From: Aliikangiella marina
GTDB taxonomy: Bacteria; Pseudomonadota; Gammaproteobacteria; Enterobacterales; Kangiellaceae
Length of the DNA stretch: 64,000 nucleotides
Assembly (NCBI RefSeq): GCF_007004765.1
Contig: NZ_VIKR01000003.1
Location: 186,001-250,000, forward strand
Direction of reading: 5' to 3'
Positions 10,916 to 63,740 of the stretch are shown here, piece by piece. Position 1 is the stretch's first letter, and each line of letters starts with the position of its first letter. The position numbers were made by a program, and so were the translations under genes. The notes under the pieces were generated by a model that saw only the letters and a list, made by a program, of their open reading frames with translations, was not told where the DNA came from and searched no databases.

Positions 10916-11413
10916 ATGAGAAAAACACTTTTAACTACAGTGATGTTAGCAACACTTTTAGCCGGTGCAACGGGATCTCCTATAGCAGTAGCACAGGGTT
11001 CGACCGACGCTGAACTCGAGCTGTTTGAACATAAAATGCAACGCCACCATGAGCGTAAGAAATTTCAAATTATGCGTGCCTTATCTGCGCTTGATCTGAG
11101 TGACGATCAAAAAGCTACGATTAAGTCAATTAGAGACAGCAATCAAGCAACTGCCGAAGCGAATCGTGAGACAGGCAAAGCATTACGTCAGCAAATCCGC
11201 CAAGCGTTGCAGGAAGAGGTTGTCGATGAAGCGGGTGTTAAGGTGTTAGTTGCACAAGCTGCCGAGTTAAGAGCAGAGCAAATGATTCGTATGGCTCATG
11301 TTAAAAAACAAATCTTAGCCACCTTAACTGATGCGCAAAAAGTAAAGCTCGAGAAAATGAAACAAAGACGAATCGCGAAAATGAAACGTTGGCAAGAAGA
11401 GAATGAGTTTTAA
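10916..11413 (+). CDS. cpxP: periplasmic Spy/CpxP-family chaperone-like protein
   Basis: A 165-residue exported protein of the LTxxQ family. A signal peptide ends near AVAQG (about residue 27); the mature part is nearly all alpha-helical and very charged. The two LTxxQ-type repeats are seen as LDLSDDQKATI (about 58-68) and LTDAQKVKLEKM (about 141-152). Family members are periplasmic cradle-shaped dimers; CpxP inhibits CpxA and delivers misfolded proteins to DegP, while Spy is an ATP-independent chaperone. Location opposite cpxRA with a CpxR-type box between supports the CpxP role. RBS GAGGAAAAG precedes the ATG. Confidence 0.88.
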   Translation: MRKTLLTTVMLATLLAGATGSPIAVAQGSTDAELELFEHKMQRHHERKKFQIMRALSALDLSDDQKATIKSIRDSNQATAEANRETGKALRQQIRQALQEEVVDEAGVKVLVAQAAELRAEQMIRMAHVKKQILATLTDAQKVKLEKMKQRRIAKMKRWQEENEF

Positions 11414-11429
11414 ACCCTATTGTTAGGTC

Positions 11430-11467
11430 GCTTCGTCAGTTCATTCCCTGACTGGCGAAGCTTTTTT
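11430..11467 (+). terminator. intrinsic terminator after the cpxP-like gene
   Basis: An 11-pair stem GCTTCGTCAGT / ACTGGCGAAGC (one G-T pair) with a 10-nt loop, followed by TTTTTT. Also lies just beyond the stop of the convergent patatin gene. Confidence 0.9.
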
Positions 11468-11468
11468 A

Positions 11469-12545
11469 TTAGAGAATCGTAGCGATATCGATTAAATCTG
11501 ACTCACTGACGCCTTTTTCGCTCAATCTTTTAAAATCCTCCGCCATGAGGTGGCTCTTATCGAGTACTTCAGTCCAGTAATTGATTCGAGTTTTCTCATC
11601 AAGCTTTTCGAAGTCGGTACGGTCTGAAATCTTGCCGAAGGGTAAACGTTTTACATGAGATTTTGAAGGCGTTACTAGCACCACTTTGTCGAAGTTATTG
11701 ATAGAAGCATTGCGTGACCTCAATCCCTTATCAAACCAACCAGGTTTTACTTTAGGAAAAAAGTGAGGATAGAGCACAAGTCCACTGGAATTGAAATCGA
11801 GATCCAGGTGGTAATCGACTATTCCTCCATCACGGTAGACGCCTTCAGGTGAATCATGAATATCCTGGATACCGCGAAGTACCAGTGGTATCGACCCAGA
11901 TGCCATCAATGTGTGATGAACTTTAGCTCGTGTGAGCGTTTGATAATGAGTTGGTAGATCGGAGAATTGGAAGTAACTTTTGGAGAAGTGTTCGTTTTGA
12001 GTATGAAAAATATAACGATCAAAAAAATGCTGGATGGTATTTCTTGAAAATATATTGGCGGTTGCGGCAGTGATCAACCCAAGCAGCTGAACATATTTAT
12101 TTTCGCTCGCATTTAATCCTTTGGCTTTAGCAACAATAAAGTGACTTTGAATAATTGGGTTGGTTGCAATTTCTTCGGCGCCTGTTTCGCCGAGGACTTT
12201 TTCGAGTAATAAATGGGCCTTGTCGCTGATTTCATGAACATCAGGTTTTTCGGAATAAGTTTCGGTAGAATAATAATGCGCAAGCCGCTCAATCGCAGCA
12301 ACAGGGTCTTTTTGAGCAAAACATGCCATACGCCATGAGCCTGCTGAAGAGCCGATGGTATAAATAGGTTTGTCCCGATTCGCAAAAAACTCACCAAATA
12401 AATACTTATCTAAACCGAACAGGGTAAACCATTTAGGTCCACCAGAAGCGCCCGCCACAACATCGAAGTGGTCCGGCTTTAGGCCTTCGGCTAGGAGCTT
12501 TTGCTTTGCTGTTTTGCCGACATAAATTTCGATAGCACTAGTCAT
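11469..12545 (-). CDS. patatin-like phospholipase
   Basis: A 358-residue lipolytic acyl hydrolase with the Ser-Asp dyad of patatins. The glycine-rich oxyanion motif is ASGGPKW (33-39), the nucleophile elbow is GSSAG with Ser67, and the catalytic Asp is D239 in the DGG motif of YRDGGIVDY. The order and spacing of these elements are as in the family. No signal peptide is visible, so cytosolic or effector-like roles are possible; likely substrates are phospholipids or lysophospholipids. It is followed (28 bp, same strand, upstream) by apaH, so the two may be co-transcribed. Confidence 0.85.
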   Translation of the reverse strand: MTSAIEIYVGKTAKQKLLAEGLKPDHFDVVAGASGGPKWFTLFGLDKYLFGEFFANRDKPIYTIGSSAGSWRMACFAQKDPVAAIERLAHYYSTETYSEKPDVHEISDKAHLLLEKVLGETGAEEIATNPIIQSHFIVAKAKGLNASENKYVQLLGLITAATANIFSRNTIQHFFDRYIFHTQNEHFSKSYFQFSDLPTHYQTLTRAKVHHTLMASGSIPLVLRGIQDIHDSPEGVYRDGGIVDYHLDLDFNSSGLVLYPHFFPKVKPGWFDKGLRSRNASINNFDKVVLVTPSKSHVKRLPFGKISDRTDFEKLDEKTRINYWTEVLDKSHLMAEDFKRLSEKGVSESDLIDIATIL

Positions 12546-12573
12546 TTAAAACTCAATTTTTTCCTGTTTTCGG

Positions 12574-13410
12574 TTATTTACCGAAAGTAAATTGCTCGTA
12601 AAACTCTTTAGATTTAACTTGAAAATACTCTTTATCTTCAAGTCGCAAAGCGGTCAATAAGCCTCCCCACGCACAACCAGTATCGAGTGCATAGACACCA
12701 TTGGTATAACAGTGGCCTTGCAATGACGCCCAATGCCCAAAGACTAATTCACAGCCCAATGGTTTGCGTGCAACTTCGAACCATGGAATTAATTCTGGAG
12801 GCTGTTGGCCGACAGGGACCTTTTCAGTCAATTCTAAAGAGCCATCTGCTCGACAGTAACGCATGCGAGTAAGGTAATTGGTGATTACTCTTAGCCGTTT
12901 CATACCGGTTAATTTCTTGGACCAAATGTTCGGTGTATTGCCATACATGGCTGCATAGAATTCCTTGGCTCGATTGGATTGAATACACAGGCTGACTTCG
13001 TAAGCATATTCGATGACTTTTTGTAATTTCCATTGGGGAGGAACACCTGCATGCACCATGGCAGTGTTTAATCTCGCGTCATAATAAAACAAAGGTTGTT
13101 TGCGGAGCCAATTGACTAGTTTGGGGCGATCTTCTGCCGCCAGGATGTCATTAAACGTGTCTTTTCTAGTTGCTTGCTTGGCGCCAGATTCGACCGCTAA
13201 AAAATGTAAATCATGATTGCCAAGCACGCATCGAATGGATTGCTTATGCTCAAAAACAAATCTGAGAGTTTCCAGTGAACTCGGACCACGATTGATTAAA
13301 TCGCCGACTAACCAAATTTCATCTTTTGCTGGGTCAAAGGCGATTTTTTGTAATAGTTTCTGGAGACTTTGATAACATCCTTGGATATCACCGATGGCAT
13401 AGGTGGCCAT
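12574..13410 (-). CDS. apaH: bis(5'-nucleosyl)-tetraphosphatase, symmetrical
   Basis: Hydrolyses diadenosine tetraphosphate (Ap4A) to two ADP and can remove Np4-type RNA caps. A metallophosphoesterase of 278 residues with metal motifs GDIQGC (D8), GDLINRG (D37), GNHD (N65, H66, D67) and later histidines in MVHAG and GHWASLQG. The sequence closely follows the ApaH pattern, including the C-terminal ALDTGCAWGG. Usual partners such as rsmA and apaG are not adjacent here; instead the gene precedes a patatin on the same strand. Confidence 0.96.
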   Translation of the reverse strand: MATYAIGDIQGCYQSLQKLLQKIAFDPAKDEIWLVGDLINRGPSSLETLRFVFEHKQSIRCVLGNHDLHFLAVESGAKQATRKDTFNDILAAEDRPKLVNWLRKQPLFYYDARLNTAMVHAGVPPQWKLQKVIEYAYEVSLCIQSNRAKEFYAAMYGNTPNIWSKKLTGMKRLRVITNYLTRMRYCRADGSLELTEKVPVGQQPPELIPWFEVARKPLGCELVFGHWASLQGHCYTNGVYALDTGCAWGGLLTALRLEDKEYFQVKSKEFYEQFTFGK

Positions 13411-50625: not shown

Positions 50626-51207
50626 GTGTCAGTAATCGAATTGAGCGACCGCCAGCTGGTCAAACAATTCCAAAGTGGAGACAGAAAAGCGTTTGAAGCG
50701 TTTATTCGTCGCTATCAAGACCGGTTACTGCGTATTGCACTTGTTTCACTGTATGCCAGTAAGGATGCAGAAGATGCGGTTCAGGAGACCTTTTTGCGGG
50801 CATATACCGGGTTGTCGAGCTTTCGTTTTGGCGCTGAACCCTTTACCTGGCTTTATCGAACCTTAAAAAATGTCTCTAGTGAGTTGAATAAGCGTCATCT
50901 GCGGCATCAGGGAGGTGAAGGTGGCAGTTTAAATGACGACAATACGCTAGGGCATGCAAATGCTCTGGAGTCCCAGTGGAGCGGCCAAGATGAGCTTGGA
51001 GATGCGCTAGCTTCGTATAAAATGGCTAAGCAAGTTAAAAATCTGGTCGACCAACTGCCGCCACAGCAAAAGGAAATCGTCATTTTGCGAGTGTTTGAGG
51101 AACTTTCTGTGCAACAAACCGCCAAGATTCTTGGTTGTAGAGAAGGCACAGTGAAAGCAAATTTACATAAAGCGATGAATAATCTTCGCCAACTCAGCCA
51201 AAAATAG
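50626..51207 (+). CDS. ECF-type sigma factor (RpoE-like)
   Basis: 193 residues from a GTG preceded by AGTGGAG. Region 2: LVKQFQSGDRKAFEAFIRRY, AEDAVQETFLRAYTGL and the WLYRTLKNVSSELNKR helix; region 4: LPPQQKEIVILRVFEELSVQQTAKILGC, REGTVKANLHKAMNNL. A likely anti-sigma (one TM) starts 11 bp downstream and an exported protein follows, forming a three-gene stress unit. Confidence 0.92.
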   Translation: MSVIELSDRQLVKQFQSGDRKAFEAFIRRYQDRLLRIALVSLYASKDAEDAVQETFLRAYTGLSSFRFGAEPFTWLYRTLKNVSSELNKRHLRHQGGEGGSLNDDNTLGHANALESQWSGQDELGDALASYKMAKQVKNLVDQLPPQQKEIVILRVFEELSVQQTAKILGCREGTVKANLHKAMNNLRQLSQK

Positions 51208-51217
51208 GTATTAATTG

Positions 51218-51670
51218 ATGAAGAAAACGTCAGACAACGAATTAGCCGAGCTTGTTGAGCAATATAAAAAGGTTGAGGCCCCCACCTATCTAGCCAGTAA
51301 AATCATGGCGAATATTGAAAGTGAGCCAAGTCGCAGGTCGTATGGTATGCCAGTGTTTTCAGCTATGTTTTCTTTGGCAATACTTGCCTTATTTGTGCTC
51401 ATCACACCGAATGATCAAGTTGATAGTCAAGATAGTAAATATTCTGCAATTCCTTCCATGTCAGAAGCAAGCAAGGTGATTGCGAATAAGCCAAAGATGG
51501 TCATGCCTAGCCTAACTAGTCTCGGAGGCGTGGCCACTCATGTATCGATGCCAAGCCGAAAAGTCTTAGATTCTCAGATGACAAGGTCTCCGACAAATAA
51601 GTCGCCTGAAGCAAAGGACATTCGTAAAAGCGAGCGCCCAAATGATGAAACAATCAAACGACTGATTTAA
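51218..51670 (+). CDS. single-TM protein, probable anti-sigma
   Basis: 150 residues; ATG 51218 (an in-frame TTG at 51215 gives the same protein plus one). Acidic/charged N-terminus (1-43) that would bind sigma, TM at about 45-63 (FSAMFSLAILALFVLIT), and a Ser/Lys-rich periplasmic tail without motifs. No zinc-binding HxxxCxxC is present, so the family is unclear; assigned by position behind the ECF gene. Confidence 0.6.
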   Translation: MKKTSDNELAELVEQYKKVEAPTYLASKIMANIESEPSRRSYGMPVFSAMFSLAILALFVLITPNDQVDSQDSKYSAIPSMSEASKVIANKPKMVMPSLTSLGGVATHVSMPSRKVLDSQMTRSPTNKSPEAKDIRKSERPNDETIKRLI

Positions 51671-53316: not shown

Positions 53317-53862
53317 ATGCAGGGCTTGATTTACACCATTCTGGCTGACATGGTCATTGATATGAAAGGTATTCCTTTTTGGAACGAAGTCATTCGGGAG
53401 TCTAATGTGGCCTCAAAGGGCGCTTATACGACTGGTGTCCAGTATGATGATGAGGAACTGTTTGCGATTGTTGAGTATTTGGAAAAAGCCCTTGAGTTAC
53501 CGCAGGCAGAAATCATTAAGCTGTATGGTGTACACCTTTTTCCGATTCTTCTGGAAAAAATGCCGGTTGGTTCCCTCGAAATGTCATCAATGAAGCGTTT
53601 CTTGTTGCAGATTGACGAAGTGATTCACAAAGAAGTTAAGCGAGTGAATCCGGATGTGTATTTACCAGAATTTCAGTATATAGACCCAGGTAAAGATGAA
53701 CTTGTGATGTTGTACCGCTCTAAACGCAAGCTATGCCCCTTAAGTGAAGGCTTAATTATTGGCGCGGGGAAACATTTCAATACCGAAGTGACTATTAATC
53801 ATCCAATCTGTATGCATGATGGAGCTGACCATTGTCGGTTAGAAATAATCATGGTCCCGTGA
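53317..53862 (+). CDS. H-NOX heme-based gas sensor (NO sensor)
   Basis: Binds heme and NO (or O2) and transmits the state to its cognate kinase. 181 residues, the stand-alone bacterial H-NOX length. The proximal heme ligand is H104 in FLLQIDEVIHKEV; the heme-propionate motif Y-x-S-x-R is Y133/S135/R137 in LYRSKRK. Three cysteines (C140, C165, C173) with H167/H172 lie where V. cholerae-type H-NOX proteins have a zinc/thiol site, so redox sensing in addition to NO is possible. The gene overlaps into a histidine kinase gene (TGAAATG), the normal partner. First gene of a three-gene signalling operon. Confidence 0.93.
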   Translation: MQGLIYTILADMVIDMKGIPFWNEVIRESNVASKGAYTTGVQYDDEELFAIVEYLEKALELPQAEIIKLYGVHLFPILLEKMPVGSLEMSSMKRFLLQIDEVIHKEVKRVNPDVYLPEFQYIDPGKDELVMLYRSKRKLCPLSEGLIIGAGKHFNTEVTINHPICMHDGADHCRLEIIMVP

Positions 53863-53863
53863 A

Positions 53864-55357
53864 ATGTCTGATAGCGAATATTTAATTGCTTACGAACGTG
53901 AGCGAGCGGCGAGAATATCAGCGGAAAAAATCCTTGATGAGAGAACTCGAGAGCTTTCGTCAAGCATGAACTTAGTGAAATCCCAATTTGAAAACCTAAT
54001 CCTACGCAATAAAAACCTTAACCTCTTAACGTCTGTGATTGGGCTGACTCAACAGCAACTCTCACTCTCTGAATCGTTCGAGCAGTTTATTAACGTACTC
54101 GGTAATACTGCATCAGCCGCGTACGTTATAACTTCGATTAAATTGAGTGGGAAGGAAAAATTTCGTCCCTCAAGACATTATTGGATGAGTCCTGACAAAG
54201 CGGTCAGTATTGTCGGATTAACGCATCAACGGCTCACCCAAGATATTAGTATTGCGCGCCAAGCGTCATTAAAGGGAAAACTGATATGTGTGCGAGAAAA
54301 CGAATATCAATGCGAGACGCGACAATCACTGGTTGAATGCAAATTATTGCAGGGCAGTGTTGCATTTCCAATTCGTCGACAAAATGACATTGTTGCTATC
54401 ATTGAAATTGGCGTCCAATCTTGGAAAGATTTGGAAGACGCTATGTTAAATCAAATTGAGTCGGTCGCGCTTCAGTTTGGCGTCTCACTTGATCGAAGAA
54501 AAGCCGAAAAGCAAAACCAGCTCTACCTCAAAAAGTTAAAAGAAACACTTAAGAATCTGACACAAACCCAGAAACAACTGATTCAATCAGAAAAAATGGC
54601 TTCATTAGGACAGTTATCTGCGGGCGTTGCGCATGAAATCAATAATCCGGTTGCATTTGTATCAAGCAATTTAGCAACGTTAAGTGAATATGCCGAGGTA
54701 TTTAAACAAACCATCAAGCTATACCATCAAGCCGCTGCCAATATGACCGATAACAATGATGCTTTTGAAGCTGTACGACGCTTTGAAGATGAAGAGGGAG
54801 TGGGCGATATCATCGACGATATAGAACCAATGATGACGGATGTTGTTGAAGGTGTTGAGCGTATCAAAAGTATTGCCGATAACTTGAAGTGTTTTGCGAG
54901 AGAGGATGATTCAACTCGAGTTGAAACCGACATTAATCAGTGTATCGAATCAGCGATAAAACTAGTATGGAATAAGATCAAATATAAAGTGCAGCTTGCG
55001 ACGTCGTTTGAACCTTTACCGCTGATCTTTTGCCGTAACACCCAAATAGAACAAGTTGTTATGAATCTATTAATTAACGCCGGCCAAGCTTGCGAGCAGG
55101 ATGGAAAAATATCAGTATCGAGTCGTTTGGTAGACGATAAAATTGAAGTGCGAATTACGGATTCTGGATGTGGTATCGAAAAGAAAAACTTAGAAAGAAT
55201 TTTTGAACCATTTTATACCACAAAGCCTGTAGGAGTCGGTACCGGATTAGGTCTTTCCATCTCTTATGGAATTATTAAAGACCATCATGGAGAAATTTAC
55301 GTCGAGAGTAATCTCGGTGAAGGTTCCACATTTATTATTTTATTACCTACAATATAG
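53864..55357 (+). CDS. GAF-domain histidine kinase partnered with H-NOX
   Basis: 497 residues, soluble. N-terminal coiled coil (1-50), a GAF-like sensor domain (about 55-210), a coiled linker (KKLKETLKNLTQTQKQLIQSEKMASLGQL), HisKA box VAHEINNP with H257, and an HATPase_c domain with N-box MNLLINAGQACE, DSGCGI and GTGLGLSIS. This is the NtrB-like kinase type that often pairs with sigma-54 activators. In Shewanella and Vibrio, NO-bound H-NOX inhibits such kinases (HnoK). Start codon one base after the H-NOX stop; followed by its probable regulator. Confidence 0.93.
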   Translation: MSDSEYLIAYERERAARISAEKILDERTRELSSSMNLVKSQFENLILRNKNLNLLTSVIGLTQQQLSLSESFEQFINVLGNTASAAYVITSIKLSGKEKFRPSRHYWMSPDKAVSIVGLTHQRLTQDISIARQASLKGKLICVRENEYQCETRQSLVECKLLQGSVAFPIRRQNDIVAIIEIGVQSWKDLEDAMLNQIESVALQFGVSLDRRKAEKQNQLYLKKLKETLKNLTQTQKQLIQSEKMASLGQLSAGVAHEINNPVAFVSSNLATLSEYAEVFKQTIKLYHQAAANMTDNNDAFEAVRRFEDEEGVGDIIDDIEPMMTDVVEGVERIKSIADNLKCFAREDDSTRVETDINQCIESAIKLVWNKIKYKVQLATSFEPLPLIFCRNTQIEQVVMNLLINAGQACEQDGKISVSSRLVDDKIEVRITDSGCGIEKKNLERIFEPFYTTKPVGVGTGLGLSISYGIIKDHHGEIYVESNLGEGSTFIILLPTI

Positions 55358-55381
55358 TTAAAGTTATTTTTGGGAAGAGTC

Positions 55382-56794
55382 ATGAAAAGTGTGATTTATG
55401 TTGTTGATGATGAAAGAGCAGTGCTTGATGCGATGAAGCGTTGTTTAAGAAAAATAGACGCTGAATTTCACTTCTTTGAAAGCCCCATTAAAGCTGTGGA
55501 ATCGGCAAATGACCTGCCGCCAAACATCGTCATCACCGACCAAAGAATGCCTTTTATGACGGGCACTGAAATGTTAGCCAATCTGCGTGAAAAAGGCTTT
55601 GATTTTACGGCGATATTAGTGAGCGCATTTAATGATTTTAACGATGTCGCTGGAGCCTTTAACCGTGGATTAATTCAAAAGTACGCAGCTAAACCTTGGG
55701 ATCAGCAAGAAATACGTGATGTCGTTAATCATGCGCTGCAAGAGCCAAAACAAGCAAAAATCCCTGCTAAAGCGTCCAGTTCTGGTTTCCATGGGATCAT
55801 AAGTGAACATCCCAGTATGGCAAAAACATTCGAATACATTCGTAAAGCATCAGGCGCGAACATTCCGGTATTTGTTACGGGTGAAACCGGAACTGGTAAG
55901 GAGCTCGCAGCGAGAGTATTTCACCTTGAAGGCATGCGAAGTAGCAAACCCTTTATTGCAGTTAACTGCGCAAATTTTTCTGAGACATTAATGGAATCGC
56001 AGCTATTCGGTCATGTCAAAGGGGCTTTTACAGGAGCGGTTAGTAATCAGGCTGGGCTGTTGGAAAATGCAGAAGATGGCGTGTTGTTTTTAGATGAGAT
56101 TACTTGTTTGCCACTCACCCTACAAGCTAAATTATTGCGAGTCTTACAAGAAAGAGAATTCAGCCCGATAGGGTCTCATTCAGTAAAAAAGTTTTTAGCG
56201 CAAATAGTGTCGGCATCTTCGACGCCATTACAAGAAGCGGTAGAGCGCGGTGAATTTCGTGAAGATCTTTACTATCGCCTCAACGTAATTTCTGTTGGTC
56301 TCCCGCCACTTAGAGAACGAGGAGAGGACATTCTGTTACTCGCCAAGCATTTTGTAAAAAGGTTTAATGCAGAGTTGGGCAAACATATTGATGGTTTTAC
56401 GCCTGCAGCAGAGGAAAAGCTCATGCAATACCATTGGCCGGGTAACGTTCGGCAATTACAAAACCTGTTGCACGGCGTCGTCGTACTCAATGAGGGGCCA
56501 TTGATTGATGCCAATGCGATCAATGTGGATATCCAATGCGACTTTGAGGAGCTAGAACAGCGTGTTGCAGCCTCAATTGAGCCTCAGGACAACCAACAGA
56601 ATACCACTGAAAGCGCCAGCCAAGTACCGCATAAGTCAGAAATAAAGCCGCTATGGCTATCAGAAAAAGAATCCATCGAAGCCGCGATTAATGCATTTGA
56701 AGGCAATATTCCGAGGGCGGCTGCTGCGCTAGAAGTGAGCCCTTCGACGCTATATCGAAAAATTCAAAGTTGGAAAAAAAATAAAGGTAGTTAG
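55382..56794 (+). CDS. NtrC-family sigma-54-dependent response regulator
   Basis: 470 residues from ATG 55382 (GGGAAG RBS; a TTG at 55370 is unsupported). Receiver (1-115) with D9/D10 and phospho-acceptor D53; AAA+ domain with Walker A GETGTGKE (167-174), the sigma-54-contacting GAFTGA loop at 214-219, and ERGEDILLLAKHF plus PGNVRQLQN; a C-terminal Fis-type helix-turn-helix (NIPRAAAALEVSPSTLYRKIQSW). It is the only bacterial enhancer-binding protein in the window, and the next two downstream promoters are of the sigma-54 type, so it is their likely activator. Confidence 0.95.
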   Translation: MKSVIYVVDDERAVLDAMKRCLRKIDAEFHFFESPIKAVESANDLPPNIVITDQRMPFMTGTEMLANLREKGFDFTAILVSAFNDFNDVAGAFNRGLIQKYAAKPWDQQEIRDVVNHALQEPKQAKIPAKASSSGFHGIISEHPSMAKTFEYIRKASGANIPVFVTGETGTGKELAARVFHLEGMRSSKPFIAVNCANFSETLMESQLFGHVKGAFTGAVSNQAGLLENAEDGVLFLDEITCLPLTLQAKLLRVLQEREFSPIGSHSVKKFLAQIVSASSTPLQEAVERGEFREDLYYRLNVISVGLPPLRERGEDILLLAKHFVKRFNAELGKHIDGFTPAAEEKLMQYHWPGNVRQLQNLLHGVVVLNEGPLIDANAINVDIQCDFEELEQRVAASIEPQDNQQNTTESASQVPHKSEIKPLWLSEKESIEAAINAFEGNIPRAAAALEVSPSTLYRKIQSWKKNKGS

Positions 56795-56813
56795 ACTTTA
56801 TCGATAATTTGGA

Positions 56814-56845
56814 TTGCAAAATGAAAAGCAATTTTCATTTTGCAA
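56814..56845. promoter_or_regulatory. 32-bp palindromic upstream activator site (UAS 1) of galU
   Basis: Perfect 14-bp arms, TTGCAAAATGAAAA and its complement, around a 4-bp centre. It lies 41 bp before the -24 element, within the usual range for NtrC-type enhancers. A second related 32-bp element lies before the next sigma-54 promoter. No T-run follows it, so a simple terminator is less likely. Confidence 0.72.
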
Positions 56846-56886
56846 AAAACATAATGACTATGCTACTAAATCCCTTGCCTTAAAGC

Positions 56887-56902
56887 TGGCATGCTTCCTG
56901 CT
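56887..56902 (+). promoter_or_regulatory. sigma-54 (-24/-12) promoter of galU
   Basis: TGGCATGCTTCCTGCT fits the consensus TGGCAC-N5-TTGCW with GG and GC exactly 10 bp apart; one mismatch in each box. About 78 bp upstream of the galU ATG. Confidence 0.75.
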
Positions 56903-56979
56903 CCCTAGATACCAAACGATGTTTTTATGTTAACAACATCAACTGAATCAACTTATGTATCAAAAACGGAGAGCAAGAA

Positions 56980-57918
56980 ATGATTAAAACCGCAGTGATT
57001 CCAGTAGCAGGAATGGGGACGAGAATGTTGCCAGCAACCAAGTCGATCCCAAAAGAGATGTTGCCGCTTGCTGACAAACCATTGGTTCACTTCATCGTTC
57101 AGGAATGCGTCGATGCAGGTATTGAGCACATAGTTTTTGTCTCTCATCCTTCTAAAACCGCCCTAGAAAACTACTTTCATCGCAATTTTGAGCTAGAAGC
57201 GAAGCTGGAGTCCGGCAAGCGCCAAAAGACGCTACGAGTTGTGAGTGGCGGAGATTGGGAAAATATTCAAATCACTTTTACGTTTCAAAATCAACCACTG
57301 GGGCTGGGGCACGCAGTTTTCTGCGCGCGAGAGGTGCTGGCGGACGAACCATTCGCGGTAATCCTTCCTGATGTTTTGCTACCTTCATCGCAAAAAGAAT
57401 CGTCGAGTAATATTCTCGCAGAGATGATATACCGGAACCAAGCGACAGGCGCGAGTCAAATATTAGTAGAACCTGTTGACCAAGAATCAGTTGAAAAGTA
57501 TGGCGTCATCGCGGGAGAATTCTTGGGTGATGAGAACTCGCAATCAATATTGATGAGCGATATTGTAGAAAAACCGAATAAAAACGAGGCTCCCTCTAAT
57601 TTAGCCGTTGTCGGTCGTTACGTATTTAACCACTCTATCTGGAAGCATTTGGCCCGGACTGAACCGGGAGTTGGGGGTGAAATTCAATTAACGGATGCGA
57701 TTAAAACGCTGATTAAGGCCGAATCCGTTCAAGGGTTTAAAATGCTCGGTTCGTCCAGTGATTGTGGTAACAAATTGGGTTACTACAAAGCATTTTTCCG
57801 ACAAGTGATTGCGCAAGATAATTTCGATACCAGTGAGTTTTATGCCTGGGTCCGTACATTTATTGAAAGCCAAAGTCAATCGAGACCCAATCGAAAGCAG
57901 CTAAAGCTTGCGATCTGA
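56980..57918 (+). CDS. galU: UTP-glucose-1-phosphate uridylyltransferase
   Basis: Makes UDP-glucose from UTP and glucose-1-phosphate, the precursor for many exopolysaccharides and for UDP-glucuronate and UDP-galactose. 312 residues, nucleotidyltransferase fold: VIPVAGMGTRMLPATKSIPKEMLPLADKPL (UTP site), QNQPLGLGHAVFCA, AVILPDVLL and the PGVGGEIQLTDAI catalytic segment. Placed directly after the sigma-54 activator and behind a sigma-54 promoter, so precursor supply is likely coupled to the polysaccharide operon. Confidence 0.96.
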   Translation: MIKTAVIPVAGMGTRMLPATKSIPKEMLPLADKPLVHFIVQECVDAGIEHIVFVSHPSKTALENYFHRNFELEAKLESGKRQKTLRVVSGGDWENIQITFTFQNQPLGLGHAVFCAREVLADEPFAVILPDVLLPSSQKESSSNILAEMIYRNQATGASQILVEPVDQESVEKYGVIAGEFLGDENSQSILMSDIVEKPNKNEAPSNLAVVGRYVFNHSIWKHLARTEPGVGGEIQLTDAIKTLIKAESVQGFKMLGSSSDCGNKLGYYKAFFRQVIAQDNFDTSEFYAWVRTFIESQSQSRPNRKQLKLAI

Positions 57919-57940
57919 CAGCTAAGATAACTCCGCCCTT

Positions 57941-57965
57941 TAGCCGCATTTGCGGCTATTTTTTT
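57941..57965 (+). terminator. intrinsic terminator after galU
   Basis: Stem TAGCCGC/GCGGCTA with ATTT loop and seven T's. Its T-run touches the second upstream activator-like element, so galU and the STAS operon are separate transcription units. Confidence 0.88.
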
Positions 57966-57995
57966 GCAATTTTGAACTCGCGTTGCATTTTGCAA
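57964..57995. promoter_or_regulatory. second 32-bp upstream activator-like site (UAS 2), before the STAS gene
   Basis: Same length and same end sequences as UAS 1: starts TTGCAA and ends CATTTTGCAA, 22 of 32 positions identical by eye. Less perfectly palindromic. Lies 74 bp before the next -24 element, i.e. 33 bp further out than UAS 1, close to three helical turns. Confidence 0.65.
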
Positions 57996-58069
57996 ATTAC
58001 TGCTAAACACAAAAGCTACAGTCTCACCTATCTTGTTGAAATAAAACAAAATTATCTTTTTTAGAAAGT

Positions 58070-58085
58070 TGGCAAACTAGTTGCA
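58070..58085 (+). promoter_or_regulatory. sigma-54 (-24/-12) promoter of the polysaccharide operon
   Basis: TGGCAAACTAGTTGCA is an almost perfect match to TGGCAC-N5-TTGCA, with the required GG-N10-GC spacing. It predicts a start site near 58096, 32 bp before the STAS gene. Confidence 0.85.
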
Positions 58086-58127
58086 ACTAGATAACTGTGA
58101 ACCACAAAAGTTGTAAAGGAGAGCAGT

Positions 58128-58466
58128 ATGTTAATGACTTATTCGAAATCTCAAAATTTTGAGCGAGTTTGTTTGAGTGATCATTTCACTGACGCCGATG
58201 TCGATAATGTGCGCAATGAACTCGATTGGATTGTCATCAAAGGTGAGAGCAACATTTTGTTAGACCTATCAGGATTAACATCGTTCTCATTCCGAGCGGC
58301 TGCAGTGTTTGAAAGGGTGGCGAAAAAAATAGCATTGAGACGAGGCATGCTGAGCTTGATTTACCCCAAAGACAAAGCATTGACCAAGAAAGTTAAAGCG
58401 CTTGGTTTGCTGTCGACAGGAATGTTTAACAGAGACACTTTTCCAGCAATGCGTCCTAACGCTTAA
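58128..58466 (+). CDS. STAS-domain protein heading the exopolysaccharide operon (SypA-like)
   Basis: 112 residues forming a stand-alone STAS (anti-anti-sigma-like) domain. The central LLDLSGLTSFSFRAAAVFERVAKKIALRRG corresponds to the phospho-switch strand-helix of SpoIIAA-like proteins; the usual DSSG is replaced by FSFR, leaving two serines around residue 50 as phospho-site candidates. In Vibrio fischeri the STAS protein SypA is the first gene of the syp polysaccharide locus and its serine phosphorylation controls biofilm; by position and type this gene could serve the same switch. RBS AGGAGAG precedes the ATG. Confidence 0.8.
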   Translation: MLMTYSKSQNFERVCLSDHFTDADVDNVRNELDWIVIKGESNILLDLSGLTSFSFRAAAVFERVAKKIALRRGMLSLIYPKDKALTKKVKALGLLSTGMFNRDTFPAMRPNA

Positions 58467-58476
58467 GGATCAAAAT

Positions 58477-59634
58477 ATGAATTCTCGTGTTCTGCTTTTA
58501 ATTGTTCTTGGTCTGGTGAGTGGTTGCAGCAACTTAGGCACAGTAACTTACCAATCATTACCGGAAAAGGAATATAAAGAAGTCGAGTTAGCGGCCATGA
58601 TAGCCAATATTCAAAAACCGCAGCGTCCTAAGACAATGAATATTGTTACCGGACCAATGACGATTTCTCCTGGTGATCGAATTATTGTCGATATTTCTCA
58701 AGATGAATACTTCAACGGCGTTTACGAAGTTAATTTGGACGGGACGTTAAGCCTGCCATTTGTGAGTCCATTATTGGTAATCGGAAAGACAATTCATCAA
58801 ATAGAGCGTGAACTGACACAACATTTGATCAATGAGAACATTCTAAAACGATCAAATGCGGTTGTTAGCGCGAGAATCCAGCAATGGTCTGCGATTAGAG
58901 TGCTAGTCTCAGGCGCGGTATTTTCACCGGGTGCTGTGTTGATTAATAATCGAAGTATTGAGCATAAGAGCTATCTGCAAAAACACAAAAATGGTGACGC
59001 TCCGTTTAGTCGTTATTTAACTACCGCAATCCTAAGTGCGGGTGGCGTTCGACCCGATGCGGACTTAACTCGGGTGACGGTCATCAGAAATGGTAAACCA
59101 ATTTCATTAGATATTACCGGTGTGGTTGACGGAAGTCAGTTTCAGGATTTGGCCCTGGTCGCGGGCGACCAGGTCGTTATTCCTTCGTTAGGTATGACAC
59201 AAAACTCGTTGATGCGTCCTTCGCCGATTACACCTCCAGGTTTTCAAATCTTCATCTCAAATTTATCGACACCGGCTGACAATAATGCGGGTGCGGCAAT
59301 CGGTGAGTTATCAAGAAGTATTCCATTTGGCACGCGCTTATTACGAGGACTGATTTCGGCAAACTGTGTTGGCGGAACCGTTTCGACCAATGCATCACGA
59401 GTTGCAATCTTAGTAAGTACCGACCCATTCACCGGTCAAACACGCGTTATTCAGCGGTCGATTGAAGAGCTTGTACGAAATCATAATCGTGACGATTTCA
59501 ATCCTTATTTAATGCCCAATGATGGAATCGCTTGTTATGACTCAAATGTGACTAATGTGAGAGATGTTGCCCGTAGTTTAAGTGATATTTTTAATCCATT
59601 GTCGATTCTATCGAACATTGGAAAAGAGGACTGA
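58477..59634 (+). CDS. polysaccharide export lipoprotein (Wza/SypC-like)
   Basis: Outer-membrane channel component for exopolysaccharide secretion. 385 residues from ATG 58477 (AAGGAT RBS; the longer upstream frame overlaps the STAS gene). Lipobox VSGC with Cys17, then a poly_export domain (ISPGDRIIVDISQDEYFNGVYEVNLDGTLSLPF) and SLBB-type repeats (IRVLVSGAVFSPGAVLI, and the downstream GVRPDADLTRVTVIRNGKPI region). Extra C-terminal part (about 270-385) is of unknown function. Follows the STAS gene by 10 bp. Confidence 0.88.
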   Translation: MNSRVLLLIVLGLVSGCSNLGTVTYQSLPEKEYKEVELAAMIANIQKPQRPKTMNIVTGPMTISPGDRIIVDISQDEYFNGVYEVNLDGTLSLPFVSPLLVIGKTIHQIERELTQHLINENILKRSNAVVSARIQQWSAIRVLVSGAVFSPGAVLINNRSIEHKSYLQKHKNGDAPFSRYLTTAILSAGGVRPDADLTRVTVIRNGKPISLDITGVVDGSQFQDLALVAGDQVVIPSLGMTQNSLMRPSPITPPGFQIFISNLSTPADNNAGAAIGELSRSIPFGTRLLRGLISANCVGGTVSTNASRVAILVSTDPFTGQTRVIQRSIEELVRNHNRDDFNPYLMPNDGIACYDSNVTNVRDVARSLSDIFNPLSILSNIGKED

Positions 59635-59636
59635 TC

Positions 59637-61145
59637 ATGGCGAAGAAAAAGACAAAAGTAAAGCACAGTAAAATTCAAGTAGAGGAAGCGAAACCTAGTC
59701 GTGAATCGACAAAAGCTAACTCAAAAGAAGTTAATTCGCAACAAGCTAAATCCGATGAATCGCAGTTACCGATGTTTAAGCGAGTGCTTCTTTGGTCTCC
59801 GGTCAACCCTAATCGTTGGCCAAGATACACATTAGTTGGATTAGGTTTGATCGGTATTGTTTGGTTTTTAGCGATTTCTTACATCGTTGTAGCGCCGCCG
59901 ACCTATCGCAGTGAGTGGACTTTGGTACTACCTGGAAAGGGCGCTGGTGCGAATGTCAATCTAGTTGATATTGGGCAAACATCCACTTCTGCAGCGTCGC
60001 CCTATTCGAACTCTTCGACAAGTCCGAAAGCAAATTATAAAGCGTTTGCAACAAGCAATGCGGTGCTCAAGAATGCGGCAAGCTCACTTGGTATGACGGT
60101 GTCTGAATTCGGCAAGCCAAGGGTAAAGCTCGTTGACCAAACATCACTACTTTATTTCTCGATTGACGGCCGAACACCTGAGGTTTCGTTGCAGAAAGCG
60201 CAAGCACTGCACAAGGCACTACTTGGACTGCTTGATAAGTTGCGACAAGATGAAATTAATCAACACGAAGGAAGCGCATTGAAAGCACTTGATAGCTATC
60301 GAAACAAACTTGATGACGCGAGCGATCAACTGATTCGTTTTCAATCGGAATCTAACCTAGTGTCAATGGCTCAATTTAATGAACTTGTGATGACCATCGA
60401 GCAATTGAGAAGGGAGAAAACGCAGTCGGTCGCTCTACTCAAAGAGATAGAAGCGAAAGCAAAAAAGCTTCAACAAATTATTGATCTCAATTCGGAGCAA
60501 GCAGCTGACTCATTAGTTTTACAAAACGATAGTGTGTTTCAAAAGTCCATGCAGGAGTTTACTCAAGCACAGCAACGCTATCTGACAGTTCAGTCTAAAT
60601 GGGGTAGTAATCACCCTGAAGTAAAAAAGGCAAAGAACGATTTTATGGCCACTGATCGAACCGTGAAACTGCGATTTAAACGTTTGGTTAATGCCAAGTT
60701 ACCGAAGGAAGCAAGCTTGTTGACGTTAAAAAGTGATGCTACTCGAAATAAGTTGATGAAAGATCTGATTGAATATGATGTATTACAAAAAGGTTTAAAA
60801 GAAAAAGTTGTCACCTTAGAAGAAATCATTAAACGATTAGTGAAAGAAAGAAATGAGTTAACCATACCCGCTTCTAAACTGGACGAGTTGATCAGAAACC
60901 ATCAAGTTGCTGAGGCAATCTTTACTTCTGCACTTGCAAGAACTGATACCACCAAGGCTGATGTATTTGTCTCATATCCTTTAGTCCAGTTACTCGATAC
61001 ACCGAGTTTACCCGAACGACCCCACACGCCTAAAAAGCTATTCGCTTTTGTTGGCGCTTTTTTCAGCACTTTATTTGTTATTTTAGGATTGATGTTGTTA
61101 TGGATCAGAAAGCCATATATCCGCAAAATTTTGAAGAGCGAGTAG
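59637..61145 (+). CDS. Wzz/GNVR chain-length determinant-like protein
   Basis: Inner-membrane polysaccharide co-polymerase, 502 residues. A Lys/Ser-rich cytoplasmic tail (1-58), TM1 about 66-87, a long periplasmic coiled-coil region (about 190-400; KAKKLQQIIDLNSEQAAD and similar), the GNVR-like region and TM2 about 468-490. There is no Walker-type tyrosine kinase domain, so it is of the PCP-1/2b type. Starts two bases after the export gene and its 3' end overlaps the next gene by 46 bp. Confidence 0.85.
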   Translation: MAKKKTKVKHSKIQVEEAKPSRESTKANSKEVNSQQAKSDESQLPMFKRVLLWSPVNPNRWPRYTLVGLGLIGIVWFLAISYIVVAPPTYRSEWTLVLPGKGAGANVNLVDIGQTSTSAASPYSNSSTSPKANYKAFATSNAVLKNAASSLGMTVSEFGKPRVKLVDQTSLLYFSIDGRTPEVSLQKAQALHKALLGLLDKLRQDEINQHEGSALKALDSYRNKLDDASDQLIRFQSESNLVSMAQFNELVMTIEQLRREKTQSVALLKEIEAKAKKLQQIIDLNSEQAADSLVLQNDSVFQKSMQEFTQAQQRYLTVQSKWGSNHPEVKKAKNDFMATDRTVKLRFKRLVNAKLPKEASLLTLKSDATRNKLMKDLIEYDVLQKGLKEKVVTLEEIIKRLVKERNELTIPASKLDELIRNHQVAEAIFTSALARTDTTKADVFVSYPLVQLLDTPSLPERPHTPKKLFAFVGAFFSTLFVILGLMLLWIRKPYIRKILKSE

Positions 61146-62413
61146 TCTGGCACTCAATAATCTGGACTTTTCCATTCTATTTGATTGGTGCGCTTTATAT
61201 TGTTGCACCTGCGATGGGCTGGTTGATGATTTTATATCTCGCTAAAAAGCTCTGGTTGCAAAATGAGGCAACACCGGAAGAAGAGCGTATTCGAATTCCA
61301 TTTGGTGTTTGGGTGTGGGTCATAGGCATGTTAATGATGTTAGTGGCACTCTGGATGGGTCATATGGATTGGCAATTAGGAACAGCTAAAACAATCAAGT
61401 CGTCAATAGGTTGGGCCAAAGGCTGGGCTTTAATGGCGGTCTTCCCTTTAATTGGTTGTCTTAAGATCAGACCGGAAATTATTTATCGGGCAACCAGCAA
61501 AGTGTGTTTGCATGCGTTAATGATTTTCCCCTTTTTAGTGGTCGCTTATTTAGTTGGACTACCCCAAGAGCTTTATATTTCTCCGCTAAAAATTGTCGGT
61601 GGTCCGGGGCCTGAATTTTTCCGAGTATCGTTGTTTAGCGTCACGCCTGAAGGGGGCGTACGCTGGTTTTTATTTGCACCCTGGGCGCCTGCGTTAGGGT
61701 TTGTTGCCTGCATTTACCTGTTATTTAGCTTGCAGGAGAGCACCAAGTGGATGTGGATAGGTGTTATTGGGAGTTTACTGATGATTCTAATGTGCAAGTC
61801 ACGATTAGCAATTGTCGTCACCGTTTTATTACCAATATTTCTTTTCGGTGCGAGTAATTTACTTAAACCTTGGATCATGTTTCAAGGAGCAACGGTGTCC
61901 TTGTTTGCTGGATTTTGGGCGGATCGAATTATCGAGTTCTTTCAAGAGTTGCAAGCCGGGTTCAGAGCTGCACGAGCAGATTCGAGCAGAGTGAGGGAAG
62001 CGCTCGGACGGATTGCCGTCGATCGCTGGCAGTCCGAGGCGCCAGTATGGGGACATGGTATTGTCGAAAGAGGACCTCATCTAGTCGAGTATATGCCTAT
62101 CGGTTCGCATCATAGCTGGTATGGCTTGTTATTTGTGAAAGGTGCTATTGGCCTTGGGGCGTTAGCTATTCCACTGGCCTATAGCTTTTTTGAGTTACTG
62201 GTGAAATGTCAAGCCAATAAAACTGCCAGGGTTGGACTTGGTGTTATAACCATCCTATTTTTTTATACCTTTGGTGAGAATTTAGAGATCCTTGCTTATT
62301 TGTTCTGGCCGGGATTAATCATTGTTGGAATTGCCCATTGTCAGCCTCTGCCAAAAATTAAAGCGATCGTCACGCAGCAAAACCCGGCACGAGAATTGAA
62401 TAGTCATACCTAA
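61100..62413 (+). CDS. O-antigen ligase/polymerase-like membrane protein
   Basis: 437 residues with about twelve TM helices. A large periplasmic loop (about 290-350) contains GFRAARADSSRVREALGRIAVDRWQSEAPVWGHG and GSHHSWYGLL, the R...H pattern of Wzy polymerases and WaaL ligases. Probably polymerises or ligates the repeat units made by the locus. Begins inside the Wzz-like gene (46-bp overlap), so translation is coupled. Confidence 0.78.
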   Translation: MDQKAIYPQNFEERVVWHSIIWTFPFYLIGALYIVAPAMGWLMILYLAKKLWLQNEATPEEERIRIPFGVWVWVIGMLMMLVALWMGHMDWQLGTAKTIKSSIGWAKGWALMAVFPLIGCLKIRPEIIYRATSKVCLHALMIFPFLVVAYLVGLPQELYISPLKIVGGPGPEFFRVSLFSVTPEGGVRWFLFAPWAPALGFVACIYLLFSLQESTKWMWIGVIGSLLMILMCKSRLAIVVTVLLPIFLFGASNLLKPWIMFQGATVSLFAGFWADRIIEFFQELQAGFRAARADSSRVREALGRIAVDRWQSEAPVWGHGIVERGPHLVEYMPIGSHHSWYGLLFVKGAIGLGALAIPLAYSFFELLVKCQANKTARVGLGVITILFFYTFGENLEILAYLFWPGLIIVGIAHCQPLPKIKAIVTQQNPARELNSHT

Positions 62414-62453: not shown

Positions 62454-63740
62454 GTGAAAGTCAATCAGCTGAGAAATAAAATAGGTAACTTAATCCAGAA
62501 TCGTTTCGTTAGAAACGCTAGCTGGATTGGTGCAAGTGAGCTGGTTAATCGAGTTACTCGCCTCATTACGGCAATAATTTTAGCGAGATACTTGTCTCCG
62601 TTAGAGTTTGGAATTGCAGCGGTAGCTTTGACGACGAACGATCTAATAAAAGTGTTAGCTCAAAATGGAATTGGCGCCAAAATCATTCAGGCGAAAGATT
62701 CTGAGCTTGAGTCTGTATGTCGGACAGCTTATCGACTCAACTGGTATTTTTGTGGCGGTTTGTTTATTTTGCAGTGCTTGGTTGCATTTTGCATCGCATA
62801 TTACTACCAAAGCACCGATATCGCATTAATGATAGCAACCTTGGCGTTGGTGTATTTAATGATGCCTTTCGCACTGGTGGAAGCGTTCTTGATTCAGCGC
62901 CAAAACCGTTTGAATGTCACAGCCGTCATCGGTGTCTCACAAACCGCCACAGATAATGTTTTGACCGTGCTTCTAGCACTCTCGGGACTGGGAGTATGGG
63001 CAGTTATTTTGCCAAAGGTGGTTGTTGGGCCAATATGGGTGTTTGGTACCTTGTCTCAACAGACTTGGCGTGCGGATAAAAGCATTTCCCCCGCAAAAGC
63101 CAGTACGATTTTAAATTATGGTAAGGCCATCTTAGGCAGTGAAGTTAACAAAGCACTGCGTCTCAATGTTGATACGATGCTAGTTGCATTTTTCCTCGGC
63201 TTAGAGGCTTCGGGTATTTATTTTTTCGCCAAGAATGCAGGGTTAGGTATTAGTTTGTCGCTGATAAACGCATTTAATACATCACTATTCGCCCACCTTT
63301 GCGACCTACGCAATAGTGACGATGAGGTCAAAGCGGCATTTTCTAGCGCTCTAAAGACAATACTCTTCATTCTAGCACCACTGATTTTCTTGCAAGGCAG
63401 TCTAGCTTACTGGTACGTGCCTTGGGTGTTTGGAGAGCAGTGGACCAGTGCGATCCCTGTTCTGATGTTAATGTGTTTTTCTGCAATCCCTCGTCCTTTT
63501 GCGGAAGCGACTTCTGAACTACTCAAGGCAAAAGGCTTGGTGAACGTCGATTTGAAATGGAACACTTTGTTCACCGGTGCTTTTTTAATGGCAATTTGCA
63601 TTGGACAATTAGCAGGAATAGTTGGCGTGGCATTTGCAGTCTTTGCAGTACATCTGTTATGTCCTTGCTACTGTGTGTGGAGTATGAAGCGATTTTTTAA
63701 TCACCATCCTAAAAGTGCAATGCAGTTAGCAAGTTATTAA
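62454..63740 (+). CDS. Wzx-type flippase (MOP superfamily)
   Basis: 428 residues, 12 TMs. Moves undecaprenyl-linked repeat units across the inner membrane. Starts FVRNASWIGASELVNRVTRLITAIILARYLSPLEFGIAAVA, the typical polysaccharide-flippase N-terminal pattern; LEASGIYFFAKNAGLGISLSLINAFNTSLFA marks the second half. RBS AGAGGTGAG upstream of the GTG/ATG; ATG-equivalent start as given. Together with the Wza, Wzz and Wzy-like proteins it completes a Wzy-dependent pathway. Confidence 0.87.
   Translation: MKVNQLRNKIGNLIQNRFVRNASWIGASELVNRVTRLITAIILARYLSPLEFGIAAVALTTNDLIKVLAQNGIGAKIIQAKDSELESVCRTAYRLNWYFCGGLFILQCLVAFCIAYYYQSTDIALMIATLALVYLMMPFALVEAFLIQRQNRLNVTAVIGVSQTATDNVLTVLLALSGLGVWAVILPKVVVGPIWVFGTLSQQTWRADKSISPAKASTILNYGKAILGSEVNKALRLNVDTMLVAFFLGLEASGIYFFAKNAGLGISLSLINAFNTSLFAHLCDLRNSDDEVKAAFSSALKTILFILAPLIFLQGSLAYWYVPWVFGEQWTSAIPVLMLMCFSAIPRPFAEATSELLKAKGLVNVDLKWNTLFTGAFLMAICIGQLAGIVGVAFAVFAVHLLCPCYCVWSMKRFFNHHPKSAMQLASY

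Follow-up and report, generated by a model that had tools for sequence, protein, structure and literature searches.

A compact H-NOX, histidine kinase and sigma-54 activator locus in Aliikangiella marina: a candidate NO- or redox-responsive switch for matrix polysaccharide

Sensors of the H-NOX family bind nitric oxide (NO) or O2 at a haem, and one of them, in Vibrio fischeri, is already connected to a biofilm polysaccharide. There, HnoX inhibits the kinase HahK, which signals via SypF and LuxU to the SypG-dependent syp biofilm (PMC12369376); NO inhibits this biofilm (PMC12369376; PMC8738867). SypA, the product of the first syp gene, is controlled through serine S56 (PMC4517449). In the HqsK–LuxU–LuxO pathway of Vibrio, an H-NOX-regulated kinase phosphorylates LuxU, which feeds a LuxO-type activator (PMC8738867). 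The LuxO site is TTGCAWWWTGCAA and the SypG site TTCTCANNNTGMDWN; LuxO acts on the qrr small RNAs (PMC10162802). In Shewanella, HnoX and its adjoining kinase, HnoK, signal to HnoB/C/D, with turnover of cyclic di-GMP as output (PMC12329717). In XrtA/PEP-CTERM systems a kinase and a sigma-54 activator, PrsK and PrsR, are tied to exopolysaccharide export genes, and the Shewanella output includes a repressor as well. Here, we describe a stretch of 64,000 nucleotides from Aliikangiella marina (bases 186001–250000 of contig 3, in a genome of 5.34 Mb; ‘the window’) in which genes for an H-NOX sensor, a kinase, a sigma-54 activator and polysaccharide production lie side by side.

We propose that this locus is a compact NO- or redox-responsive switch for matrix polysaccharide, in which the kinase acts on the activator, the activator acts on sigma-54 targets, and NO-bound or oxidized H-NOX inhibits the kinase. 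We put the probability of this reading at about 0.72. The components of the locus, their order, the DNA sites and the conservation of these can be read from the DNA itself. The features described here between 53317 and 63740 of the window are all on the forward (+) strand. The H-NOX gene (181 codons; 53317..53862), a gene for a non-hybrid histidine kinase of 497 amino acids (53864..55357) and the activator gene (55382..56794) follow one another colinearly, 1 and 24 bases apart. They are followed by a galU-like gene for UTP–glucose-1-phosphate uridylyltransferase (56980..57918), the presumed source of UDP-glucose, and by a polysaccharide operon led by a gene for a single-domain STAS protein (58128..58466). 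The initial annotation had given this same order, and Pfam and TIGR models place the genes where it put them. One H-NOX and one RpoN were found in the whole genome.

Phosphotransfer, DNA binding, the sign of control and the signal we infer, as follows. Ferrous, or reduced, H-NOX would leave the kinase active, and the kinase would pass phosphate directly to D53 of the activator, a member of the LuxO/SypG clade; that a non-hybrid kinase adjoins an activator suggests such direct transfer. The phosphorylated activator would bind the dyad TTGCA-N3-TGCAA and drive sigma-54 RNA polymerase at galU, at the operon for STAS, outer-membrane polysaccharide export (OPX), Wzz, Wzy and Wzx proteins, at a gene for a secreted-looking protein with DUF6923, GEVED and DUF4842 domains that we take to be ‘LruC-type’ and, probably, at a gene for an initiating glycosyltransferase that lies further downstream. 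NO-bound or oxidized H-NOX would inhibit the kinase and silence the target genes, and NO would therefore favour dispersal. By analogy with the studied H-NOX systems, the matrix genes are expected to be expressed when NO is absent and to be off when NO or an oxidant is present. That these genes form one circuit had been suggested earlier, and the suggestion is supported by the recurrence of the order in a second species, by sites of the activator's type at the promoters, and by the grouping of the activator with LuxO and SypG. If true, this would be an NO-to-matrix circuit of three proteins whose target sites can be read from the DNA; it would be much simpler than the branched relays of Vibrio, and would offer a clean test of how the state of an H-NOX sets the output of matrix genes.

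The resemblance to V. fischeri is close. In both organisms an H-NOX-controlled kinase has, or would have, its output at the sigma-54 activator that serves a polysaccharide locus led by STAS (PMC12369376; PMC4517449), and SypG-like proteins and the window activator group together in trees. The parallel with syp drawn in the initial annotation was right, and closer than it knew, V. fischeri H-NOX already being upstream of SypG; its claim of novelty holds in part, since the logic that leads from H-NOX through sigma-54 to a STAS locus is known (PMC12369376) and the one-locus form was not found described in the literature searched, most subscription journals lying outside its coverage. Whereas HahK relays through either SypF or LuxU, a single locus in A. 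marina unites sensor, kinase, activator and targets; the kinase is non-hybrid, and the STAS protein is without the serine motif. A STAS-first polysaccharide locus with OPX and a linked SypG-type activator is present, in a gene order that differs from the syp-like locus of another genome. A hybrid kinase with an HPt domain, of the SypF kind, is absent from the mapped locus, the sole kinase of which stops at its catalytic domain, and no LuxU-like gene was noticed there, although no search aimed at LuxU was made. The window dyads are of the LuxO type, not of the SypG type (TTCTCANNNTGMDWN; PMC10162802). The activator resembles LuxO in its recognition helix, which is nearly identical, and in the 13-bp site, which is the same; LuxO, however, acts on small RNAs, and the targets here are matrix genes. 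Shewanella likewise combines an H-NOX with an adjoining kinase, but with cyclic di-GMP turnover in the place that the sigma-54 activator occupies here. The XrtA/PEP-CTERM comparison fails at the level of the models, with 293.8 of the 502.6 bits needed for PrsR (TIGR02915) and 87.1 of 300 for PrsK (TIGR02916). What is new is the one-locus form, the non-hybrid kinase without visible relay, and the recurrence of the arrangement in other bacteria: in other Gammaproteobacteria, H-NOX/kinase pairs have related activators, polysaccharide loci or both as neighbours, in most cases together with dyad–promoter sites.

A sigma-54 promoter had been proposed in front of each of the two downstream units. Putative −24/−12 promoters do occur at both, at 56887..56902 for galU (TGGCATGCTTCCTGCT) and at 58070..58085 for the STAS operon (TGGCAAACTAGTTGCA), and both come with dyads, but the bare consensus is at chance level: with up to 2 mismatches, the window contains 28 matches versus 34.4 expected. 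Since it is not enriched, we discarded the bare scan as evidence. These promoters appear to be more than chance because paired dyads lie upstream. The 13-bp dyad occurs at 56814..56826 (TTGCAAAATGAAA) and 56833..56845 (TTTCATTTTGCAA) upstream of galU, each with 1 mismatch, and at 57964..57976 (TTGCAATTTTGAA; 2 mismatches) and 57983..57995 (TTGCATTTTGCAA; none) upstream of the STAS operon, the last being identical to the LuxO site as published. By itself the dyad is no rarity (12 perfect copies, and 222 with at most 1 mismatch, versus 93 for the pattern reversed). Two composite patterns that join dyad to promoter match only 3 and 2 times in the 5.34-Mb genome, versus 0 for a reversed-pattern control, a test that is partly fitted because the spacings came from this locus and from locus L017. 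Three of these five composites belong to galU, the STAS gene and the LruC-type gene, and two lie within unrelated open reading frames (ORFs). The LruC-type gene, 1.8 kb past the window, has one dyad (65785–65797 in window coordinates; up to 2 mismatches) and a −24/−12 element (65858–65873); a weaker fourth site (dyad 75869–75881, promoter 75989–76004) precedes the gene for a fused WecG/priming glycosyltransferase several genes further downstream. It is very improbable that the sigma-54 sites are products of chance and that ordinary promoters run the operon, as the unenriched bare consensus might suggest, given that the dyads stand at promoter-like spacing, do so also in the second species, and recur at other H-NOX-linked surface genes.

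This recurrence was measured in 14 H-NOX loci that have polysaccharide genes, a clade activator or both, and that were chosen once 19 stretches had been given an initial scan for promoters. They contain 24 composite sites, 22 of them intergenic, in 11 of the 14 loci (none in L143, L035 or L063), whereas 29 permuted dyads on the same DNA gave a mean of 0.5 sites and a maximum of 3. Excluding our own locus and L017, where the motif was first seen, leaves 17 sites in 12 loci. Loci L044 and L048 (PP2C type, without such a site) and L046 were kept outside the 14. No composite site occurs in 35 other loci of the order sample described below (L157–L191; 23 of the LuxO-bearing family f21 and 12 of other families), and the remaining 104 stretches contain 8, of which 2 are intergenic (L046 and L090). 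The targets include STAS, OPX and LruC-type genes and, in genomes G042, G163 and G187, a divergent pair, one member of which is a DUF1194 protein (by Pfam on G042 and G187). Perfect dyads with sigma-54-like sites are found in three loci with H-NOX-linked activators (L022:9076-11101, L150:12693-14593 and L155:12002-13864), between the gene for a DUF1194 protein (by Pfam on L022 and L150) and that for a divergent protein without Pfam match. In L046 (5005-8400), two dyads and a sigma-54 site precede a gene for a 1086-amino-acid RTX-repeat/DUF4114 protein that adjoins the H-NOX-linked activator gene. In L085 (16199-17023) dyads and a sigma-54 site precede a glycosyltransferase-34-like gene (sub-threshold) near H-NOX, and in L090 (5314-6045) they precede a similar-looking gene, also near H-NOX. 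As judged from these predicted products, composite sites go with surface or secreted proteins, and not always with polysaccharide.

The sensor itself is a clear member of the HNOB family (PF07700; E 2.8e-32; 112.3 bits against a cut-off of 25.5). Its haem ligand, H104, together with P117 and Y133-x-S135-x-R137, is invariant in 10 of 10 aligned rows, and the putative zinc-site residues C140, H162, C165 and C173 are invariant in 5 of 5 near relatives. The best solved matches are 2kii, 4u9b and 4u99, of which the last is named So H-NOX (PMC12329717). Inhibition of the partner kinase by H-NOX in its Fe(II)-NO or Fe(III) state is known from two systems, in one of which oxidation of the zinc-site cysteines also activates the H-NOX; that of Caulobacter is activated only by cysteine oxidation, and not by NO (PMC12329717). 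With the wiring unchanged, the window H-NOX might likewise be mainly a thiol/zinc redox sensor, and the polysaccharide would then answer oxidants instead of NO. The Caulobacter precedent and the presence of all four putative zinc residues, invariant among near relatives, are in keeping with this. The haem motif is kept as well, however, and the closest solved relatives are from NO-regulated systems; we consider a sensor mainly of redox state unlikely, if plausible.

The kinase consists of an N-terminal helix, a central region, a DHp domain with H257, and a catalytic domain, according to Pfam (HATPase_c, with HisKA below threshold), an alignment of 10 kinases and a structural model. Pfam finds neither a receiver nor an HPt domain, and the protein ends at the catalytic domain. 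Of its earlier description as a GAF histidine kinase, the second part stands, and the first is unconfirmed: Pfam finds no GAF domain, a 10-row model predicts an alpha/beta region at approximately residues 68–205, much of it at low confidence (10-residue means of 28 to 62 across residues 91–190), and the 50 Foldseek matches listed do not confirm one. The N-terminal helix is likely, from its distribution, to be an H-NOX docking helix. Of the 117 ORFs that come immediately after an H-NOX gene, 79 carry the motif of this helix, compared with 8 of the 2245 other ORFs in these loci. The 79 comprise 70 of 94 kinases (a count that is fitted, because the motif was written from such kinases), 3 of 3 PP2C phosphatases, 4 of 15 GGDEF types and 2 of 5 others.

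The activator had been classed as NtrC-type, with a GAFTGA motif, correctly so: it has a receiver (REC), an AAA+ domain with GAFTGA at residues 214–219, and a Fis-type helix-turn-helix (HTH), corresponding to Pfam Response_reg, Sigma54_activat and HTH_8. The putative phospho-acceptor, D53, and K104 are invariant in 11 of 11 aligned proteins, and D10 is also kept. Aligned with LuxO and SypG-like rows, the recognition helix (SPSTLYRK) is LuxO-like, and SPSTxYRK occurs in 0 of the 11 paralogous activators compared from this genome (L204–L214; two further sigma-54-type matches lie outside the comparison). The protein falls short of the LuxO model NF041946 (384.9 bits versus 800), and is a member of the LuxO/SypG clade in a wide sense, with support of 100/99 in a 32-row tree and 99/97 in one of 33 rows. 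In the former, LuxO and SypG form a group (100/99) with 10 of the 12 activators that are linked to H-NOX, apart from the outside rows, which are 11 paralogues (10 from this genome, 1 from G001) and one TyrR-like protein. LuxO rows were those above the NF041946 cut-off; SypG rows were named by score (545–604 bits) and by position, meaning a STAS/OPX locus alongside, for the one genome viewed in detail. The sigma-54 activators beside H-NOX in L056 and L059 fall outside the clade. That of L046 lies within it, on a long branch, yet has a different recognition helix. Pfam detects no HTH in the activator ORFs of L035 and L063, and the GAFTGA loop varies in L038, L148 (GAFSGA) and L150 (GAYTGA).

Because the 32-row sample was chosen by H-NOX linkage, we also searched 45 genomes with an alignment of the clade. 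A member (>580 bits; the next score is 459) is present in 20 of them: 6 beside H-NOX, 2 (G075 and G254) some 17 kb away on the same contig, and 12 not near. Among the 12, 8 are beside STAS and/or OPX genes, 4 beside kinases of >1000 amino acids and 4 beside PP2C genes, neighbours that are reminiscent of syp. The H-NOX-adjacent label requires 4 changes on the 33-row tree, and a single origin of the linkage is therefore not shown. The trees leave room for LuxO and SypG to have descended, conceivably, from an H-NOX-linked ancestor. LuxO-type sites and activators that serve polysaccharide control outside quorum sensing are suggested, and they may help to trace where LuxO and SypG came from.

To trace the locus in relatives, 61 genomes, our own included, were searched, and 13 of them have an H-NOX match. 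In G001, of the same genus, the H-NOX is 61% identical, and the order is H-NOX, kinase, activator, two genes, galU, STAS, OPX, Wzz, Wzy, Wzx and glycosyltransferase. The gene order is kept, with two genes inserted, and is not confined to a single genome; such confinement is what the initial annotation had named as grounds for abandoning its proposal. The inserted genes, one UDP-sugar-dehydrogenase-like and just upstream of galU, the other divergent, both have dyads and a sigma-54 site, and the STAS gene has several dyads and a −24/−12 site upstream. In L017, a small divergent gene without Pfam match (11093-11629, −) and one that resembles the N-domain of UDP-sugar dehydrogenases (11841-12617, +) have dyads in common and sigma-54 sites facing each way.

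Adjacency could also be passive, the H-NOX and kinase signalling elsewhere (e.g. to an unlinked cyclic di-GMP enzyme) and another kinase running the activator. Many H-NOX/kinase pairs do lie beside a REC-HD-GYP gene with no activator in the mapped stretch (e.g. L039, L043, L047, L053, L054 and L057), and related activators elsewhere adjoin large kinases. We judge this improbable here, the three genes being colinear and only 1 and 24 bases apart, their order being kept in G001, and HD-GYP and HnoC-like profiles having marked nothing in 39 kb of our own locus. Several observations nonetheless weigh against the switch that we propose. The V. fischeri link uses relay proteins, which leaves direct transfer here unproven; Caulobacter H-NOX ignores NO, and the signal here could be oxidants instead; and 4 of the 12 clade activators distant from H-NOX are beside the very large kinases, a sign that this type of activator takes other kinases too. 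Within the genus, G003 has an H-NOX and a kinase, but the 34 kb mapped there contain neither an activator nor polysaccharide genes, and G002 (98% complete) has no H-NOX match and yet has such a kinase near a related activator, so the kinase may have other inputs. The G002 genes (L267:444-5277, on a contig of 5.5 kb) comprise a kinase with the look of a docking helix, a REC-HD-GYP protein and a clade activator.

Gene order was surveyed more widely in a sample of 394 genomes of the order, 71 of which (our own included) have H-NOX, at 73 places. We mapped 72 of these (L200 was left out), mostly in stretches of 20 kb, some of them truncated where a contig ends. In 6 of the 72 loci, and in 3 of 23 genera, H-NOX has an OPX gene within 10.5 kb, not every locus extending that far on both sides. 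From the 168 OPX genes in the 71 genomes, 0.79 loci would be expected (P 1.7e-4, assuming independent loci, which they are not); counted by genus, 0.25 are expected (P 0.002). Six of the 72 loci (our own, G001, G042, G065, G163 and G187) have a sigma-54 activator of the receiver type no more than 4 kb from H-NOX. The match near H-NOX in L018 is a 280-amino-acid ATPase and was not counted, nor were the sigma-54-type matches 8–10 kb from H-NOX in family f21. The latter, we presume, mostly end like TyrR (some are cut, and that of L169 ends otherwise). In most H-NOX genomes of this sample, neither neighbour was seen. A second set, of named loci, came from a scan with an H-NOX alignment (a single H-NOX protein as query gave no match) and consists of the best 80 of at least 566 candidates, of which 67 were mapped and 13 were not. 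Six of the 67 have an activator within 4 kb: Thalassotalea (L035), Colwellia (L038), a Pseudomonadales metagenome-assembled genome (MAG; L046), Glaciecola (L063), L056 and L059. Locus L038 also has genes for a sugar transferase, an LruC-type protein and a STAS protein; sigma-54 sites accompany the latter two, and dyads accompany the STAS gene as well. OPX is within 10.5 kb in 4 of the 67 (L036, L044, L048 and L085). L036 and L143 are apparently one contig of 18,340 bases.

The window STAS protein (Pfam E 4.6e-5; 23.6 bits versus a cut-off of 22.6) lacks the DSSG serine motif. Aligned with eight other STAS proteins, it reads LTSFSFRAA where the SypA-like row has FLDSSG, and that of L017 lacks the motif likewise. 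Control here is, in consequence, probably transcriptional. Phosphorylation control of the SypE type was considered for this protein and rejected, the serine being missing; the two SpoIIE genes of the genome are both on other contigs. Granulosicoccaceae present a different picture. In L044 (10001-12178) and L048 (9986-12025), genes for a SpoIIE-type PP2C phosphatase and a HATPase_c_2 protein come after that for H-NOX. Both loci also have STAS, OPX and sugar-transferase genes no more than 10 kb away, and their STAS proteins keep the serine (DSCG and DSSG, respectively). L055 (5668-7205) has H-NOX and a SpoIIE-type phosphatase, and L043, L051 and L052 of this family have a kinase in its place. 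For PP2C we used a profile of just the phosphatase domain (4 matches), a first version having matched 113 proteins via the shared N-terminal helix. A literature search found no description of the H-NOX/SpoIIE pairing; its match was a Dinoroseobacter quorum-sensing paper in which each term occurs once. If true, the variant would represent a new class of H-NOX effector. We suggest, tentatively and as something rather less likely than not to hold in full, that several gammaproteobacterial lineages use H-NOX as a plug-in sensor for STAS/OPX-led matrix loci, with two outputs: His–Asp transfer to a LuxO/SypG-clade activator, as in this window, and Ser-phosphate partner switching through PP2C, an anti-sigma-type kinase and STAS, as in Granulosicoccaceae; LuxO and SypG would then stem from an older matrix regulator with direct input from an H-NOX kinase. 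In two Planctomycetes MAGs (L062:7305-10519 and L064:8735-10537), STAS and HATPase_c_2-type genes immediately precede H-NOX (by Pfam on L062).

The galU-like protein (Pfam NTP_transferase) scores 319.8 bits against TIGR01099, slightly below the cut-off of 326.8. The STAS gene is followed by one for an OPX protein (58477..59634; Pfam Poly_export and SLBB_2) and one for a chain-length/co-polymerase-like (Wzz) protein (59637..61145), which has no Pfam match, a weak match to TIGR03007 (33.6 bits versus 278.85) and a counterpart at the same place in L017 that is 62% identical. The Wzy/ligase-like membrane protein (61100..62413) also has no Pfam match; it is so named from its position and, by eye, from the look of its sequence, and its counterpart at the same place in L017 is 71% identical. 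A Wzx-like flippase (62454..63740; Pfam Polysacc_synt_3, E 5.4e-42) follows, and beyond the window a two-domain glycosyltransferase precedes the LruC-type gene. At 50626-51670 of the window, an ORF that resembles an ECF sigma factor is followed by a possible anti-sigma gene, both recognized by eye only.

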